Shown here: one piece after another, positions 3,522-16,821 of the stretch
Position numbering within the stretch: position 1 is the first letter of the stretch
Layout: every line of letters starts with the position of its first letter
Origin: Rhodospirillales bacterium
Lineage (GTDB): Bacteria; Pseudomonadota; Alphaproteobacteria; Rhodospirillales; UBA2165
DNA length: 36,812 bases
Assembly (NCBI GenBank): GCA_012960465.1
Contig: DUBF01000032.1
Location: 1 to 36,812 of the forward strand
Direction of reading: 5' to 3'
The notes under the pieces: generated by a model
Databases searched by the model: none
Seen by the model: the letters and a program-made list of their open reading frames with translations, nothing else
Told to the model about the DNA's origin: nothing
Program-made: the position numbers and the translations under genes

Positions 3522-5501
3522 TCAGTTATTTTGAACACAATAAGTTTTCCACATCTGACGATAAGCCAGCTCCAATTCATTCACGTGAACCTTTCCATTA
3601 AATATAGTTCCAAGAGCAAGCCTACGTATTTCAGTTTTAAATTTCTGAATTTTATCAACATCATGTGCCAAATTTATAGCAATCTGAACATAATCTTCCT
3701 TACTATAAGCTATCAACTCATGCATATTAAGTCGCGATAATTTGCTTTTACCCATACACCCCATTTCTATGTTACCCGACAAAGTAACTAATGGCACACC
3801 CATATAAATAGTCTCATCTGACACAGTGCCACCAGTAAATGGGAATGGATCCAAAGCTATATCAATTAAGTTATACTGACTTAGATATTCCGTTCTGCCG
3901 AGGATGGTTGTAACAAACTCAATTCTATTTTGATTAATTCCGTAGCCCTTAAATAACTTAAGGTACCGGGCTTGCATGGTTTTGTCATTAAATCCACCAG
4001 CTATCAGCTTGATTCGAGAATTTGGAACGGAAAGAAGAATATCTGACCACTTTGATATGACCGTTTGATTCAATTTAGCCAAATTATTAAAACATCCAAA
4101 TGTAATATACCCATTCTCAATTACCGGAGGGGGCTTAATCTCAACTTCCAACTCAGGTGGATAATAACAAATAAAATCACTCAGCCTTATAAGATTTTCA
4201 ACAAAAAACTTATCCGCGCTTTCAGCCGGGGAAATACGATCGTCGGTAATTAAATAATCAACATTTGAAAGTCCGGTAGATGATACTTGGTTCATATACG
4301 AAACAATTATCGGAGCTGGCTGATGCGCCGAGATAATACGATTACTTGGCAAAAAATTAGTTGTCCCAACAAATATATCTATTTGATCAGACCCAATCTC
4401 ATGCGCAATTTGATGGGGTTCCATTTTCGAGACAACCCTCCAAAAATCAGAATTTTGCTGCAGGTGTGCTGTCACCTCATCTGGTTCAATACAATCGGAA
4501 TAACAATAAATCTCAAAAAATTCGCGATCATGGTATCTCAATAACGTTTCAAAGAAAAAACTGGTAACATGCGAATAAAACTCTCTTGAATAATATCCAA
4601 TTTTAATTTTCTTATTAGGATTAAGAGAAAAATCAGTAAAATCGGATGACACAGCGATTTTGTTCTCAATTTCTGCCGCCCATCGTTTATTTTCTTGAAA
4701 GATGACCTCTCGATCACTAGTTTCACTGAATACCAAAGCAAATAAATAACGGTCCCAATTGAGCTGATTGTCTGGATCTATTTCAAGACATTTCTTAAGA
4801 TAAATTAGGCCCTGCTCAGCACGTCCACTCGCGTGGAGAGCGTGCCCGAGGTTACTGAGAGTTGCCACTTCATTTGGTTTTAGTTTCAAAGATTTTTCGT
4901 AAAATTGAATAGAATCATCTAATCTCCCTACTTTTTCTAAAGCGAAGGCCAGACCATTAAATAGATCCGCATTCTCAGATTCAAATTTAAGTGCTTGTTG
5001 GAAAAAATTCACTGCTTCAACAAATTTACCTAATTTCAACAAAATACGCGCCAAAGAGAAATTACTTTCAAAAGAAGTAGGGGATGAGTGAATGGCCTCA
5101 GTTAAGTGATATTTAGCATTCTCTAAATTCCCATTTTTTTCAAAAAGTTTCCCTAAATTATGATGTGCTTCATGTAACCGCGGATCAATTTCTAGAGCTG
5201 AAAAATAGGCACGTTCAGCTTGTTCACTTTTATTATTTAATTTGAGGACGTTACCAAGACTATTATAAAATATTGCTTGGTTTGGTATTGCTGTAATGGC
5301 CTTTTGTATCTTTTCCATAGCATCCTCTAAATCACCAACCGACAAGCTTATAAGGCCTGATAAATGATTAGCATCTGGGTGATCACCATGCTTTGCCAGT
5401 ATTTTATCATACAGTCTGTTAGCTTTTTCCAAGTCATTGGCATTGTGAAACTTGAGAGCTAATTTGAAAGTTTCTTCAACATCCATATTCTTATCAGTCA
5501 A
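3522..5501 (-). CDS. TPR protein with O-GlcNAc-transferase-like (SPINDLY/GT41) domain
   Basis: A 659-residue putative cytoplasmic protein glycosyltransferase. Residues ~8-245 are about seven tandem TPR repeats, the substrate-recruiting superhelix of this family. The catalytic half starts near residue 299 with IKIGYYSREFYSH, whose His311 aligns with the essential His of OGT. It continues with the UDP-sugar-binding segments ITFGCFNNLAKLN (466-478) and IALDPFPFTGGTVSDE (548-563). The usual G-(H/Y)-T element between them is missing: the stretch around 376-387 reads DIFVGTTNFLPS. The frame opens with TTG at 5501; an ATG at 5486 is an alternative start, and neither has a good Shine-Dalgarno. A tiny ORF ends two bases upstream and a methyltransferase gene follows. 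In related bacteria such proteins modify flagellin or other proteins; the target here is unknown. Confidence 0.88.
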   Translation of the reverse strand: MTDKNMDVEETFKLALKFHNANDLEKANRLYDKILAKHGDHPDANHLSGLISLSVGDLEDAMEKIQKAITAIPNQAIFYNSLGNVLKLNNKSEQAERAYFSALEIDPRLHEAHHNLGKLFEKNGNLENAKYHLTEAIHSSPTSFESNFSLARILLKLGKFVEAVNFFQQALKFESENADLFNGLAFALEKVGRLDDSIQFYEKSLKLKPNEVATLSNLGHALHASGRAEQGLIYLKKCLEIDPDNQLNWDRYLFALVFSETSDREVIFQENKRWAAEIENKIAVSSDFTDFSLNPNKKIKIGYYSREFYSHVTSFFFETLLRYHDREFFEIYCYSDCIEPDEVTAHLQQNSDFWRVVSKMEPHQIAHEIGSDQIDIFVGTTNFLPSNRIISAHQPAPIIVSYMNQVSSTGLSNVDYLITDDRISPAESADKFFVENLIRLSDFICYYPPELEVEIKPPPVIENGYITFGCFNNLAKLNQTVISKWSDILLSVPNSRIKLIAGGFNDKTMQARYLKLFKGYGINQNRIEFVTTILGRTEYLSQYNLIDIALDPFPFTGGTVSDETIYMGVPLVTLSGNIEMGCMGKSKLSRLNMHELIAYSKEDYVQIAINLAHDVDKIQKFKTEIRRLALGTIFNGKVHVNELELAYRQMWKTYCVQNN

Positions 5502-9855: not shown

Positions 9856-10062
9856 CTGGGTTCTTTAACCAAATCCTGGGGAAAATACTATCTCCTAGTT
9901 ACAATATTCCCTGGATATTAACATTCAAAACTTCTTTTTTCTATCTTCGCTGCAGAATCATAAAACAAAAATACATAACAAGTCTTATACAAATTCTAAT
10001 TTAACGCTAATTTTGATTGTTGAAGGCAGTTGTGAACACTATCATTACATTATATTTAATTC

Positions 10063-10070
10063 AAAGGAGG
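10063..10070 (+). promoter_or_regulatory. Strong Shine-Dalgarno ahead of an ATC codon
   Basis: AAAGGAGG is a near-perfect anti-16S match followed by eight bases and then ATC at 10079-10081, in frame with the glycosyltransferase. No ATG, GTG or TTG lies at a usable distance. It points to the true start being ATC, or a former ATG that has mutated or been misread. Confidence 0.6.
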
Positions 10071-10078
10071 AAACTCTT

Positions 10079-10795
10079 ATCCAACGTTACGCTCTTGTTT
10101 GCCCAACCAGAGGCAGGCCGAACCGGATAAAACAATTTATTGAAAGCGCTTTAATCACAGCCGCACATCCAAAGCGCATTGAAATATTATTGTACATTGA
10201 TGACGATGATCCAGAGTTTAAATATTATGAGGCTAGTATAACTAATCTCGAAAAAAAATTCAGTTGCAGCTTGATTTCAATAACACTCGGTCCTTCTGTT
10301 GGAGTTCCGAGAGCAGCTAATATTCTATTTCAAAAATCAACTGCGGATGTCTTCCTGGTATCAAATGACGATCAAGTGTTTATCGATTACGGTTGGGATG
10401 CACGACTTGATAAGGAAATTATTAAATTTCCTGATAACATATTCTGCATATGGTTTAACGATAAATGGGAATCAAAAAATTTTTGCACCTTCCCCATAAT
10501 AAGCCGTAAATGGATAGAGACCTTAGGTTATTTGCAATTCCCTTTTTTTGAACACTTCTTTACCGATGCTTGGATATGGATGCTCGCTAAAGCTATTGGA
10601 CGCGATCACTATATTGATGACATCATCATCGAACACCGTCATTGGAAAACTGGAAAATCAGAGAAAGATGCAACTTATGAGAAACATCTAACGACAGAAA
10701 GCAAGTCAAGGTATACTCGAGATAGGTCTGTGATTGATAAATTTGAACGTTATTTCCATGCGGATGTTGGGGCCTTAAAGGAGGTTATGGATTAA
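10079..10795 (+). CDS. Glycosyltransferase-like protein (GT-A fold, GT2-like)
   Basis: About 238 residues resembling a nucleotide-sugar glycosyltransferase. It begins with YALVCPTRGRPNRIKQFI, the usual first strand and helix of GT-A enzymes. A cluster YIDDDD at the end of a strand and FLVSNDDQVF further on look like nucleotide-sugar and metal sites. The C-terminal part (FTDAWIWMLAKAIG, IEHRHW) is rich in aromatic residues and histidines. I place the start at ATC 10079 because of the strong Shine-Dalgarno at 10063-10070 and because the recognisable fold starts there. The frame is also open from a TTG at 10013, which would add 22 residues without a ribosome site. It stands alone on the plus strand and converges with a GT61 gene. 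The sugar and acceptor are unknown. Confidence 0.65.
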   Translation: MQRYALVCPTRGRPNRIKQFIESALITAAHPKRIEILLYIDDDDPEFKYYEASITNLEKKFSCSLISITLGPSVGVPRAANILFQKSTADVFLVSNDDQVFIDYGWDARLDKEIIKFPDNIFCIWFNDKWESKNFCTFPIISRKWIETLGYLQFPFFEHFFTDAWIWMLAKAIGRDHYIDDIIIEHRHWKTGKSEKDATYEKHLTTESKSRYTRDRSVIDKFERYFHADVGALKEVMD

Positions 10796-10866: not shown

Positions 10867-12054
10867 TCAAGTGTCTGATCTGGAAGCCAAATTGTTGGTT
10901 GCCATTTCAATCGCCAATTCAATTTTGGGCAACGAAACAGAGTAATCATGGCGTTCCGTCTCACCATCGCCAATTACAAACATATAATTTTGCCCGCACA
11001 AATTCGAGGAATAGTAATAACATCGGTTGATAAAAGTATCAGGTTGAATCTCAATCAATGTTGCAGACATCGGAGCAAAAATATGGTTGGTCATTCCGGA
11101 TCCACTGGGGCCACAAATAATCTCAGCCTCATTAAATAGTCTGATTTGATCTACAAACGACAACGTGCCCGGCATAACGACTTCAAAATTATAGGATTGG
11201 AGAAAATCAACAACTATTTTCTCATTTGAAATATTACGGGTTCCTACATCTCCTCTTGAGACATACAAACGCCGCTCACCTACTTCTTTTTGCTTAATAC
11301 CATACGCTGTAAAAAATTTCTCTCTTAGCCAATCCATTTGCCGCCGAGAGTGGCCTCCTGGAGCCAAAAAGGTTGGAACAAAAAGACGTTCAAACAACCA
11401 GTTTGATCCATCATAAGGAAGCAACCGATCTTCACTCACACCCAAAGCATCCAATGAAGCCAGTTGAAAATCTGACAAATCTCCTGGCACTACAACTGGA
11501 TAATTTTTTAATTCGGGAAAATGATCTAAAACCCATAATCTAGAAATATCCTCGATAAGCCAATGATGATAAATCCAAGACCATGGTCCCAGCATAAGGA
11601 TAGCAGGGCTTTCAATTGTCTGCGTTGACCCGCTTTTGAGGAGACCGGCCGATAATATTGTTTGCACTTCACGAAGAGGGATTTTTACCATCTCCTGATT
11701 ATGGTAACTCTCCGCAATTAAACGATGGTGGCCGTCAAACAGCAATCCGTGCGGTGTAGCCAGAGACACATCTGTTAGAGCCGCTATACCTACTGGACCA
11801 GCTTTATGCACCAAATCGTATAAATGTGGTATTGGGGAATTCAAAAATAAAGGGGCATCAGGATTAGATGATAAATTTAATGGTGGATTACAATCAAACC
11901 GAACCTCAGGCAACAATTCAGTCCACATGTTTAGACCGTCTTTTGGCAATAGGCTATGATAGTCTTCCGAGGTTTCACAAAATAGACTAAATGAGATAAT
12001 ATCCAAGAGACTGCCTAATTCCATATGAGATAGCATATTTGGCGATTTTACCAA
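10867..12054 (-). CDS. Glycosyltransferase family 61 (DUF563) protein
   Basis: A 395-residue putative glycosyltransferase. The DUF563 hallmarks are YHHWLIEDISRLWVL in the first half, then RRLYVSRGDVGTRNISNE, then a late stretch from FNEAEIICGPSGSGMTNHIF to ATLIEIQ, which forms the donor-site region. No signal peptide or membrane segment is evident. The frame opens at a TTG (12054); ATGs at 12036 and 12024 are alternatives and none has a clear Shine-Dalgarno. It is divergent from a TPR-OGT-like gene, with only 53 bases between them, so their promoters must overlap. In bacteria GT61 proteins are found in capsule, lipopolysaccharide and protein-glycan clusters; the role here is inferred from neighbours only. 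Confidence 0.85.
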   Translation of the reverse strand: MVKSPNMLSHMELGSLLDIISFSLFCETSEDYHSLLPKDGLNMWTELLPEVRFDCNPPLNLSSNPDAPLFLNSPIPHLYDLVHKAGPVGIAALTDVSLATPHGLLFDGHHRLIAESYHNQEMVKIPLREVQTILSAGLLKSGSTQTIESPAILMLGPWSWIYHHWLIEDISRLWVLDHFPELKNYPVVVPGDLSDFQLASLDALGVSEDRLLPYDGSNWLFERLFVPTFLAPGGHSRRQMDWLREKFFTAYGIKQKEVGERRLYVSRGDVGTRNISNEKIVVDFLQSYNFEVVMPGTLSFVDQIRLFNEAEIICGPSGSGMTNHIFAPMSATLIEIQPDTFINRCYYYSSNLCGQNYMFVIGDGETERHDYSVSLPKIELAIEMATNNLASRSDT

Positions 12055-12107: not shown

Positions 12108-13907
12108 ATGAATTCCACTACTGAAAAATTCTTAAAAACTGCCATTGAACAGCAGTTATCTGGTAACACAGATGTGGCATCTGAGTTATATAATAAAGTT
12201 CTGTTAGCAAGTCCTGATAATGTAACTGCTTTGGTTAACCAAAGCGCTATTTTTATGGATCTTCAAAATTTTATAGATGCCGCATACTTGCTCGAGCGGG
12301 CATTAAAGATTTCACCAGAAGACATAGAAGCGATCAATAATTATGGAAACTCCCTAGTAGAATTAGGTCAATCAAATAAAGCGATCGAACAATTTCAATT
12401 TGCCCATAAACTTGCGCCAGATAATAGCACCATCTCTAGTAATTTAGGACGCGCTTTGCTCCGAAGGGGCGACTACAAAACGGCAATTAAAATATTCGAA
12501 TCCGCTATCCAATATAATACAAATAACGCAGGGCTTAGGTTTATTAATGCGCTGGCATTACCCACAATTCCGGAAAATTTAAGCCAATTAAAAGAAGCAA
12601 GAAAGCGGCAATCCTCGCTGATTCGTGCTCTTCTTAAAAATAATGTTCAACTGACCGATCCACTCACCGAGGTTGGCATGACAAATTTCATAGCAGCATA
12701 TCAAGGACACGACGATCGTGAAATTCAAGAACAACTCGCCACCTGTTATCGTACTGCTTGTCCCGAACTAAATTATATAGCCCCCCATATTGGTCAACAA
12801 CGTAAACATGAAAAAATTAGGGTAGGTTTTGTTTCAGCACACCTCGGGAGCCACACAATCGGTAAGCTCAACCATACTCTAATAACAGGCTTGAATAAAA
12901 ATAAATTTGAATTATTTCTATTTTGTCTCGGAATGAACAAACGCAGAAAAGATCAAATTACTGACAAATTTGCGCGCAATGTTGATAAAATATTTTTCCC
13001 GGATCCAACGCTCGCTCATATGCGTTCTACCATAGCCGAAGCAGCGCTCGATATCATATATTATCCCGATATAGGAATGGAACCACTCTCTTATTTTCTA
13101 GGGTTTTCCCGCTTAGCCAACGTACAATGCGTTACCTGGGGGCACCCTATAAGTACGGGAATTTCGACAATCGATTATTTTATTTCAAGTGAGACAACCG
13201 AAACCAAAACAAGTGATACCCATTATACAGAAAAACTATTGTGTCTAAAATGCTTCTCAACAGATTACGCAAAGCCTAATTTACCTATTTTAAAAAAATC
13301 GCGAGAAGACTTTAAACTTAAAGTTGGAACTAATCTCTATGTATGCCCTCAAAGTCTATTCAAATTTCACCCAGATTTCGATAAGATTTTAGGCGGAATT
13401 CTCCGAGCCGACCCCAATGGTGAGATTATTTTACTAGAAGGCCAACACCAAGAATGGGCCATCAAATTAAAAGCTCGATTCGAAAAAAAAATACCAGATG
13501 TAATCGCTCGTATTAATTTTCTACCTCGATTAAGCGGTTCGGATTTTCTTCAATGTATTGCACTTGCGGACGTCATACTCGATACACCACATTTTTGTGG
13601 TGGCAACACAAGTTATGAAGCATTTTCACTTGGGAAAATTGTAGTGACTTTACCAAGTAAGTTTCTTCGTGGACGGCTTACCCTGGGTCTATATCGTCAA
13701 ATGGGCATAGATACACTGATTGCAAAAACACCCGAAGAATATATTAAAATAGCCGTTAAATATGGGGACAATAAAGACGCCCGAGCTTTAGTTGAAGAAC
13801 GTATCCATAACGCCCAAAAAACTATATTTGATACCAAGTCTGCAATCAAAGCTCATGAGAAATTTTTTTGTGAAGTAATTGAATCTGTCAGCCATTTAGC
13901 GCCCTAA
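12108..13907 (+). CDS. TPR protein with OGT-like glycosyltransferase domain (second copy)
   Basis: A 599-residue relative of SPINDLY/OGT proteins. Residues ~5-140 hold about four TPR repeats, fewer than in the other two TPR-glycosyltransferases here. The catalytic half opens with KIRVGFVSAHLGSHTIGKL, where His249 is at the conserved position, and shows VTWGHPISTGISTIDYFI (342-359). The nucleotide-sugar site region (408-532) contains YVCPQSLFKFHPDFD, LDTPHFCGGNTSYEAF and PSKFLRGRLTLGLY. Those C-terminal signatures are well kept, so the enzyme is probably active, perhaps on proteins. It is distinct in sequence from the copy at 3522-5501, so it is not a recent duplicate. The transporter gene 35 bases downstream may be co-transcribed. 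Confidence 0.87.
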   Translation: MNSTTEKFLKTAIEQQLSGNTDVASELYNKVLLASPDNVTALVNQSAIFMDLQNFIDAAYLLERALKISPEDIEAINNYGNSLVELGQSNKAIEQFQFAHKLAPDNSTISSNLGRALLRRGDYKTAIKIFESAIQYNTNNAGLRFINALALPTIPENLSQLKEARKRQSSLIRALLKNNVQLTDPLTEVGMTNFIAAYQGHDDREIQEQLATCYRTACPELNYIAPHIGQQRKHEKIRVGFVSAHLGSHTIGKLNHTLITGLNKNKFELFLFCLGMNKRRKDQITDKFARNVDKIFFPDPTLAHMRSTIAEAALDIIYYPDIGMEPLSYFLGFSRLANVQCVTWGHPISTGISTIDYFISSETTETKTSDTHYTEKLLCLKCFSTDYAKPNLPILKKSREDFKLKVGTNLYVCPQSLFKFHPDFDKILGGILRADPNGEIILLEGQHQEWAIKLKARFEKKIPDVIARINFLPRLSGSDFLQCIALADVILDTPHFCGGNTSYEAFSLGKIVVTLPSKFLRGRLTLGLYRQMGIDTLIAKTPEEYIKIAVKYGDNKDARALVEERIHNAQKTIFDTKSAIKAHEKFFCEVIESVSHLAP

Positions 13908-13942: not shown

Positions 13943-14863
13943 TTGAAAGATCCTGAGCACGCCCCAAAAATTAGTATAGCTTTAGCCTATTTGATGGCTA
14001 CCGGAACAGTCCTGGGATGGGCAATCGGTATAGTCATTGGTCGCGGAATTCACGACTCCACACCGCCAATCGGCCTATCTTTTTGGCGATGGTTTATCCC
14101 AGCTATATGTCTTACTCCTTGGGTAATCCCAAAACTAAAACACGAAGGCAGAATTTTGCTTAATGCTTGGAAACCTATTTGTGCAATGGGGATTTTTATG
14201 GTCGGATCCAGCACTCTTTCATTGCTTTCTGTGAATTACACTACAGCTACAAACGCATCACTCGTTAATGCTGGACAGCCATTAACTACGGCAGTTATTG
14301 CCTGGATCATCTACAGAGATCAACTAACTTTGATTCAGACCTTAGGGATTATAGCTGGCGCGATAGGAATTATTACGATGATATCACGTGCAGATCTTCT
14401 GGTTCTTCAATCACTTGAGTTCAACGGAGGTGATTTGATAATGTTATTTGCCATCATTGGATTTGGATCCTATGCCAATACACTTAGAACTATACCTCGC
14501 AATCTCAGTCTTACCGTATTGATATTTGCTGTTTGCGTCGCTGGCTGTATTGAATTACTACCTTTTTATATCTATGAGAGTTTTACCTACATGACGATGC
14601 CAACAAATTGGATAACCGTCATGTGGGTTACTATATTAGCACTTATAACAACGCTAATTCCAACCTATTTGTGGAATACAGCCGTTTCGGTTGTCGGCGT
14701 TAATCGCTCAGCAATATTTGTTAATTTAATTCCAGTTTTTGGTGCGGCGCTTGCCATAACATTTTTAAATGAACAAATCTTTCTTTATCATATTTTAGGC
14801 GCGAGTTTGATTTGTATTGGGATTTTTCTGGTAATAAGGGGTCACGAGTCAAAATCTTCTTGA
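13943..14863 (+). CDS. EamA/DMT-family transporter
   Basis: A 306-residue inner-membrane protein with about ten hydrophobic segments in two EamA repeats. The typical end of the first repeat, TTATNASLVNAGQPLTTAVI, leads into the helix IQTLGIIAGAIGIITMI; the second ends with FVNLIPVFGAALAITFL and ILGASLICIGIFLVI. The family exports amino acids, nucleobases, drugs or other metabolites, and the substrate cannot be predicted. The start is a TTG at 13943, with AAAGGA about ten bases upstream; no better ATG precedes the first helix. The last 22 bases overlap the end of the convergent TPR-GT9 gene. Confidence 0.85.
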   Translation: MKDPEHAPKISIALAYLMATGTVLGWAIGIVIGRGIHDSTPPIGLSFWRWFIPAICLTPWVIPKLKHEGRILLNAWKPICAMGIFMVGSSTLSLLSVNYTTATNASLVNAGQPLTTAVIAWIIYRDQLTLIQTLGIIAGAIGIITMISRADLLVLQSLEFNGGDLIMLFAIIGFGSYANTLRTIPRNLSLTVLIFAVCVAGCIELLPFYIYESFTYMTMPTNWITVMWVTILALITTLIPTYLWNTAVSVVGVNRSAIFVNLIPVFGAALAITFLNEQIFLYHILGASLICIGIFLVIRGHESKSS

Positions 14864-16821
14864 GCCAGCGCTAACGCTATCTGATCAATGACTTCGTCCC
14901 AACAACCAGCGTTCTTTTGACGAAACACACGCATACTTCCATACCACGGGCTATAATCCTTATTTAATAACCACCTCCAGTCGGGGGTAGCAGGTAATAA
15001 CAACCAAACAGGTGCACCTAAAGCTCCTGCTAAATGCGCTATTGCAGTATCGGTAGTAATCACGAGATCAAGATTTTCCATAATTGCCGCGGTATCTATA
15101 AAAGCCGCAGACATATCAACATCTTCTCCTAAGACGTTAATATTGTCAGAAAAATCAGTAAGCTGCTCACACCCAAATCCTTGTTGTAAGGAAATAAATT
15201 TATAATTCTCAGCTAAAAATAACGGGCGCAGATAAGATAACGGAATTGAACGCTGATAATCGGCTTCGTACGTTGGATTACCTTGCCATGAAATACCTAT
15301 CCTGGGCTTATCTCGATGCCCTAAAATTTTATCCCACCGAGTGATAAGACTACCATCAGCGAATAAATAAGGACCAGGATTGAGTATTGTTTCTACTCCC
15401 AATAAATACGGCAAACTCATCAGTGGCACATTAAAATCTGCATCAGGAGTAAAATCACCGCTACTTAAAATAGTTATGGGATCATCAAAACTATTCAATA
15501 GTAATTTTAGACGATCGGGGCATGACAAAGTTATTTGTTTTGCCTTAACAGCAACTAACGATACAAATCGCAAAAACTGTATCGTGTCTCCAAGGCCTTG
15601 TTCGCACCAAATTAGAAGGTGTTTACCCGCTAAATCCTGCCCCTGCCAAATAACACCTGGCATAGTACTCTGCTTGGTAGCTGTCTCCAGTGAATTCAAA
15701 CGGATCTCAAATTCCCGCCAACCCTCTTTAAAATACCCTCCTAACAAAAGTGCTTGAGCAAAGTTTGATTTAACATCTTCATCACAAGGGTCTGCTATTA
15801 CAGCTAGTTTGTAGGTAGCTATTGCATTTTCTATCTGCCCAGAATGTAAAAAGGTTAATGCCTTATTCCCTAATAATTTAGTGTTTCTGGGGGAAAAAAA
15901 GATGGCTGCTTCTATATCACCGACGGCTTCATTAAACCTTCCGAGATCACGATAAATATTTGCTCGTCCACCTAAGAACTGGGCTTTTTTTTCAATGTCT
16001 CTGCCGGAATTAGCAACCAAGTTATTCATAATATCAAGTGCCTTCTCATATTCTTTTAACTTTTGCATACAAAGCGCTAAGTGATAGTTTGCTGCCTGAT
16101 TATTTTCTTCCAGGTCTAATGCCTTTTGAAAATATTCAGCTGCAACCTGATAATTCATCTCCATCCAATACACGTTACCTAAATTATAATGTGCATCAGC
16201 ATAATTTGGCTCAACAGTTAATGCCGTCTGAAATGCAATTTTTGCTGCAGATAAATTGTCAAGCTCAGTCTCAACAATGCCAATATTGTTCTGCGCAGCT
16301 ACATTTTTTGGATCCACGTTAATAATTTCTTGTAAATAATTACGAGCATCCCTGAGACGGCCCATTTTTCTTAAAGCAACACCTATATTGATCCGTGCTC
16401 CGAAACTATCAGGATCTTGTTCTAAAACTTTCTCAAAAGCACTAACCGCATCGGCAAACTGATTTCTAAGAAGCTCCATCTCGCCAAGGTTATACCAACT
16501 ATCAATCTGCGTTGGCGCAGCCTTGACAGTTTGACGAAAAGCTAAGGCAGCCGCCTCAAACTCTCCTTTGTCTTTCAAAGCTAGCCCATAGTTGTGTAAA
16601 ATCCCTACCTGCGGCCCACCGAGGGCTAGAGCTTGCTTCAAGATATCTATGGCTTGACTATTAAGACCTATCTTATGGAGAATTATGCCGAGTAAATGAA
16701 GTGCTTCGTAATCATTGGGGTCAGCTTTAACCAGTTCACGGCAAATTTCAGCAGCCTGATTAAAATCACCAAGTTGGTAACTCTCAGTCGCGCATTCAAT
16801 TAATAAGTCATTAGAAGCCAT
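14842..16821 (-). CDS. TPR-repeat protein with GT9/heptosyltransferase-like C-terminal domain
   Basis: 659 residues. About ten TPR repeats fill residues ~5-350. The remainder is a GT-B type domain: HLLIWCEQGLGDTIQFLRF (401-419), PRIGISWQGNPTYEADYQRS (506-525), and the donor-site stretch LDLVITTDTAIAHLAGALGA (584-603), with PVWLLLPATPDWRW (604-617). This TPR-GT9 architecture is common in alphaproteobacteria and cyanobacteria; members are presumed glycosyltransferases, few of them tested. An AGGAAG sits very close to the ATG. It is the third TPR-glycosyltransferase in 14 kb, all with different catalytic domains or subfamilies. It overlaps the convergent transporter gene by 22 bases. The ~265 bases to ribF hold nothing I can recognise. 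Confidence 0.87.
   Translation of the reverse strand: MASNDLLIECATESYQLGDFNQAAEICRELVKADPNDYEALHLLGIILHKIGLNSQAIDILKQALALGGPQVGILHNYGLALKDKGEFEAAALAFRQTVKAAPTQIDSWYNLGEMELLRNQFADAVSAFEKVLEQDPDSFGARINIGVALRKMGRLRDARNYLQEIINVDPKNVAAQNNIGIVETELDNLSAAKIAFQTALTVEPNYADAHYNLGNVYWMEMNYQVAAEYFQKALDLEENNQAANYHLALCMQKLKEYEKALDIMNNLVANSGRDIEKKAQFLGGRANIYRDLGRFNEAVGDIEAAIFFSPRNTKLLGNKALTFLHSGQIENAIATYKLAVIADPCDEDVKSNFAQALLLGGYFKEGWREFEIRLNSLETATKQSTMPGVIWQGQDLAGKHLLIWCEQGLGDTIQFLRFVSLVAVKAKQITLSCPDRLKLLLNSFDDPITILSSGDFTPDADFNVPLMSLPYLLGVETILNPGPYLFADGSLITRWDKILGHRDKPRIGISWQGNPTYEADYQRSIPLSYLRPLFLAENYKFISLQQGFGCEQLTDFSDNINVLGEDVDMSAAFIDTAAIMENLDLVITTDTAIAHLAGALGAPVWLLLPATPDWRWLLNKDYSPWYGSMRVFRQKNAGCWDEVIDQIALALAQEDFDS

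Follow-up and report, generated by a model that had tools for sequence, protein, structure and literature searches.

The DNA analysed here, referred to below as the window, is a stretch of 36,812 nucleotides from a Rhodospirillales bacterium whose genome (G000) comprises 3.74 Mb in 245 contigs. It carries the gene of a predicted glycosyltransferase together with the features collected in Table 1. The Pfam family PF00535 (glycosyltransferase family 2) matched this enzyme below the curated threshold (E 0.0019, 18.6 bits versus a cut-off of 23.3), and NCBIfam returned no family for it. AlphaFold2, run on an eight-sequence alignment, gave a best model with a pLDDT of 81 (the other four 55–68) in which residues 4–9 form the first beta strand. 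The best Foldseek match of the model was 6p61_C, a bacterial glycosyltransferase (E 9.6e-8, TM 0.58/0.71, 12% identity), followed by PcManGT, TarP, SpsA and others, all solved bacterial and archaeal glycosyltransferases. We take 6p61_C, PcManGT, TarP and SpsA to be GT-A enzymes, and the model points to a GT-A fold for the protein encoded in the window.

Table 1. Features at the glycosyltransferase locus (positions in the window)
Feature	Position	Strand	Basis
TTGATT, probable -35 element; includes TTG 10013	10013..10018	+	In 4/4 copies, 18-base spacer to CACTAT
CACTAT, probable -10 element	10037..10042	+	4/4 copies, fixed spacing; footprint only; weak match to TATAAT
Extended Shine-Dalgarno AAAGGAGG	10063..10070	+	Direct reading; 8 bases 5' of ATC
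ATC, very probable initiation codon	10079..10081	+	ATC in 4/4 same-genus copies; purifying selection sets in here
Glycosyltransferase gene, predicted GT-A fold, 238 codons + TAA	10079..10795	+	Pfam, AlphaFold2 model, Foldseek
Glycosyltransferase family 61 (GT61) neighbour, syntenic	10867..12054	-	PF04577; 53% identical to L032 neighbour
TPR / glycosyltransferase family 41 (GT41) neighbour, syntenic	12108..13907	+	PF13844; 58% / 57% identical in L032 / L030

The enzyme had matches in 6 of the 9 genomes of the genus (its own included), in 13 of the 24 genomes of the family and in 18 of the 317 of the order, many of these matches being paralogues or distant relatives. The copies nearest to that of the window are L005 (genome G004, JABIIH01; 71% identical) and L006 (G002, CAJWAR01; 70%). 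A further copy, L009 (G007), is a pseudogene that is 55% identical to the window over 150 residues, has stops in frame and has lost its 3' part; it was placed in the same-genus ATC group on the strength of its leader. Three loci appear under two labels (L030 = L006, L032 = L005 and L036 = L011). The search of viral contigs gave no relative at first and later one at 24%, the plasmid search one record at 24%, and the phage search 71 records, the best 20 of which were all at 31% or less.

The genes downstream of the enzyme are shared with L032, where the EamA gene that accompanies the GT61 and TPR/GT41 genes is 70% identical to that of the window. The upstream neighbour differs, being a gene for an IclR-type regulator in the window and a divergent ABC transporter gene in L030 and L032. 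With GT61 and GT41 genes as syntenic neighbours, the enzyme may act in glycan or protein glycosylation. TPR-repeat proteins are encoded at three places in the window (3522–5501, 12108–13907 and 14842–16821), two of them with a GT41 domain among the matches listed.

With regard to the start of the gene, the preliminary description had proposed a strong Shine-Dalgarno sequence followed after eight bases by ATC, with a TTG at 10013 as the only standard start in frame, and direct reading of the sequence agreed on both counts. AAAGGAGG at 10063–10070 is separated by an 8-base gap from ATC 10079–10081, from which the frame stays open for 238 codons up to the TAA ending at 10795, and from the upstream stop to where the fold begins TTG 10013 is the sole in-frame ATG, GTG or TTG. 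Taken alone, the combination of Shine-Dalgarno and ATC is at chance level, as AAGGAG-N5-10-ATC occurs at 2 sites in the window versus 1.95 expected (and AAAGGAGG 4 times versus 1.36 expected), so that its significance must come from homologues. Among three copies compared, no RNA hairpin conserved over the start emerged (z-scores -0.38, 0.09 and 1.57), and only in the window does the predicted fold place the Shine-Dalgarno inside a five-pair hairpin.

To compare the start codon we used 16 copies, the partial L018 and distant matches below 30% identity being left out. The codon located seven codons 5' of the cysteine of the CPTRGRP motif is ATC in all four members of the same-genus group (window, L005, L006 and L009). 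Reading from the upstream stop to this cysteine meets no ATG, GTG or TTG in L005 and L009, and one TTG each, 5' of the ATC, in the window and L006; this TTG is conserved as DNA and its frame is not kept across the copies. Outside the genus, L014 (65% identical) and L022 (49%, a piece at a contig end) carry ATG at this codon and L015 (59%) carries TTG preceded by AGGAGG, while two other relatives start upstream of it. Because L014 and L015 have further NTG codons upstream (ATG and GTG in L014, GTG and TTG in L015) their own starts are not certain. An NTG lies one codon away in L010, L011, L007, L017 and L019 (L010 also has one at the very codon) and further upstream in L016, L021, L008 and L020. 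The identity of the ATC is kept within the genus group alone, and its position is also marked by ATG or TTG in relatives outside. The Shine-Dalgarno sequences of the other same-genus copies, at a similar place, are weaker (GGGAG in L005 and L006, GAGAG in L009), the extended form being confined to the window copy. In a tree of 14 rows (L009 and L022 left out) the three intact ATC copies (window, L005 and L006) cluster with a support of 86/86. A single origin of the ATC fits this tree, so that its sharing by the three intact copies, which form one clade, partly reflects common descent. L010, L011 and L007 represent a paralogue, 44–47% identical, in G004, G002 and G006, where the nearest standard start is TTG.

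The onset of coding constraint was judged from the window, L005 and L006, which were aligned without gaps over the 238 codons. The window compared with L005 and L006 gave pS values of 0.89 and 0.86 (saturated) and pN values of 0.18 and 0.19, and the pair L005 and L006 a dS of 0.76, a dN of 0.05 and a ratio of 0.07. Codons 2–36 by themselves showed a pN of 0.07–0.17 versus a pS of 0.44–0.84, and the 15 codons 5' of the ATC a pN of 0.49–0.78 versus a pS of 0.56–0.92, in a count that ignores indels. As pN is low from codon 2 on and not in the 15 codons before, coding constraint begins at the ATC. Ten Ile codons are common to the three intact copies; one is ATA in all, one is ATT in all, seven vary, and codon 1 is the only one that is ATC in all three. 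A start inside the gene was rejected, since going on from the ATC the next NTG in frame comes at codon 38 in the window (a TTG), at codon 76 in L005 and at codon 37 in L006, beyond the first strand of the window model, which would be lost by starting there. On the strength of these comparisons we are highly confident that ATC 10079 is the start codon. The preliminary description had weighed a rare natural ATC start against a mutated ATG in a crippled gene; the same ATC in four of four same-genus copies, together with strong purifying selection on the three intact ones, argues against a recent crippling mutation and makes a natural, conserved AUC start the most likely reading of the sequences.

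Upstream of the Shine-Dalgarno, the pattern TTGATT-N18-CACTAT is present in all four same-genus copies and ends 34–45 bases 5' of the ATC. When the window is compared with each of the three other copies, the two hexamers are identical at 12 of 12 positions versus 5–6 of 18 in the spacer. A simple sigma-70 scan found 4 sites, versus 4.1 expected, and did not list this pair, so that the case for a promoter rests on conservation. The pair is probably a promoter whose transcript starts 3' of the TTG, and TTG 10013 is then probably not translated. In L009 (positions 1500–1900) the enzyme gene has decayed, yet the ATC and the promoter-like hexamers are intact.

For comparison we also examined infC, the gene for IF3, which was found in eight of the nine genus genomes (loci L038–L045). 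All eight have a frame that begins beyond a stop, where AAGGAG or GAGGAG is followed by ATC GCA, and no NTG stands between the stop and the ATC. In the order, infC was found in 116 of 120 genomes searched, and the conserved Ile codon, read by eye, was ATA in 22 and ATC in 7 of 29 readable loci (30 were returned, L055 being unreadable); this reading is less strict than that for the genus, many loci also having an in-frame NTG upstream or an ATG five codons after. Among six family genomes searched, two of which had been searched earlier, infC was found in three, with ATC in G017 and G018 (G017 having an in-frame ATG upstream as well) and ATA in G012. Near-cognate infC starts look normal in these bacteria, and AUC looks to be the one used in the genus.

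Taken together, we consider it reasonably probable that the locus encodes a working glycosyltransferase with a natural AUC start at 10079 and with the TTG in its promoter, produced at a low level that rises as IF3 gets scarce. Transcription from the TTGATT-N18-CACTAT promoter would begin about 30 bases 5' of the AUC; with its start 3' of TTG 10013, the transcript would lack the TTG, as judged by the footprint. The AUC would then be picked through the Shine-Dalgarno at 10063–10070. Pairing of AUC with the initiator tRNA fails at the third base, for which reason initiation on the enzyme gene is expected to be weak and to be counteracted by IF3, an effect shown for non-canonical starts in other bacteria. 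The enzyme would thus be held at a low level, and, as infC in the genus likewise appears to start with AUC, it would probably become more abundant at a low ratio of IF3 to ribosomes.

The strongest competing explanation, which we consider unlikely though still to be reckoned with, is that the ATC is genuine and neutral: in a gene that is dispensable and on its way to being lost, an ATG (or TTG) would have drifted to ATC, a codon without any part in regulation. The orthologue was not found in five of the nine genus genomes, of which G001, G003 and G008 had no match and G005 and G006 had paralogues only, several genomes being incomplete, and this, together with the pseudogene in G007, indicates that the gene is dispensable. 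Neutral drift would also agree with the single origin of the ATC that fits the tree. However, the intact copies bearing the ATC are under strong purifying selection, and the ATC has been kept although it is one base from ATG, while seven of the nine other shared Ile codons vary. Translation from TTG 10013, giving an N-terminal extension of 22 residues, appears very improbable. In its favour, the window and L006 have the TTG in the frame of the gene, which is open from there. However, the distance from TTG to ATC is 66, 65, 75 and 64 bases in the four copies, placing the TTG out of frame in two of them (L005 and L009), so that it cannot be a shared start; moreover, 3' of the TTG the ATC frame of L005 is interrupted by a TGA, and the TTG sits within a conserved promoter-like hexamer. 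The preliminary description had regarded conserved residues encoded by 10013–10078 as evidence against the ATC, and we found none at the protein level, the 15 codons before the ATC included; the extension was rejected on these grounds, which favours the ATC. That a base-call or assembly error has replaced an ATG is scarcely credible, as nothing apart from the rarity of ATC starts speaks for it and the same ATC occurs in four genomes (G000, G004, G002 and G007).

The favoured reading, a natural AUC start with low output, can be set beside known systems. The gene dsg of Myxococcus xanthus has an AUC start, and pcnB of E. coli reportedly starts with AUU, a finding said to be that of Binns and Masters 2002. 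Like the gene studied here, pcnB would encode an enzyme whose output is held down by a near-cognate start; it differs in using AUU and in being another gene in another lineage. The likeness to infC lies in a near-cognate AUH start under a Shine-Dalgarno that is kept across species (ATC also in the infC of the genus); in contrast, infC encodes an autoregulated translation factor, whereas the enzyme is an accessory glycosyltransferase for which no part in a feedback loop is apparent. According to one study, few non-canonical starts have been characterised so far, IF3 represses translation from such starts, E. coli infC starts with ATT and that of Streptomyces with ATC, and the GTC start of Streptomyces sigR was repressed by IF3 in experiments (PMC5472188). 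The gene sigR resembles the enzyme gene in being a non-translation gene whose start codon is rare and which has, close by upstream, a canonical codon that attracts annotation; it differs in using GUC rather than AUC, and IF3 repression is experimental for sigR and inferred for the enzyme. For the conserved starts of S. aureus ccpN (AUA) and cvfC1 (AUU), which have an extended Shine-Dalgarno, another report gives about 10% of the AUG output in poor medium, and up to 30% for ccpN in rich medium (PMC13009471). These genes share with the enzyme gene a start at a conserved Ile codon and an extended Shine-Dalgarno, but they were profiled and measured, whereas the enzyme start comes from sequence and has the extended Shine-Dalgarno in the window copy only. 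By likeness to infC, sigR and ccpN, we infer low, IF3-sensitive initiation of the enzyme gene.

Other sources bear on how rare and how weak such starts are. A reconstruction of 61,358 ancestral AUG starts lists one switch to AUU and, in the excerpt available, makes no mention of AUC (PMC5622118). The incidence of AUC starts is described, in a further source, as variable across species, and changing AUG to AUU or AUC in petD of the Chlamydomonas chloroplast is said there to cost only 10–20% of initiation (PMC9845219), which argues against assuming that AUC is very weak. No AUC-start glycosyltransferase was among the matches listed in our literature search, in which subscription journals were thinly covered.

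More tentatively, and with some doubt, we suggest that the AUC may be a regulatory device, subjecting a gene of surface or protein glycosylation to an IF3-dependent control that it would share with infC and so tying glycan output to the ratio of IF3 to ribosomes, i.e. to growth state. The interest lies in an unusual start common to an accessory enzyme and infC, which would be a new case in an already known class. The clean footprint (start position, promoter-like pair and onset of selection) and the matching infC start make IF3 control a simple reporter question. Moreover, annotation by standard starts hides non-canonical ones: the L032 copy is opened only at GTG codon 76, whereby the first third of the enzyme is lost.

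A search for other genes lacking an NTG start covered 243.7 kb (the window and 20 further stretches of the same genome) and 172 coding-like open reading frames, of which 4 were flagged and none was convincing by eye; one of these, L086 on the minus strand, has a Shine-Dalgarno and ATA, but an ATG soon after. It should be stressed that this search is blind to genes with an in-frame upstream NTG, as in the window, and therefore gives no rate.

A second AAAGGAGG occurs at the end of the glycosyltransferase gene (10777–10795), directly 5' of the ATG GAT TAA that closes it. In L030 the TPR/GT41 gene follows the enzyme gene directly, beginning at this gene-end position through an ATGA overlap. The second AAAGGAGG is possibly the remnant of an ancestral operon that the GT61 gene has split in the window and in L032.
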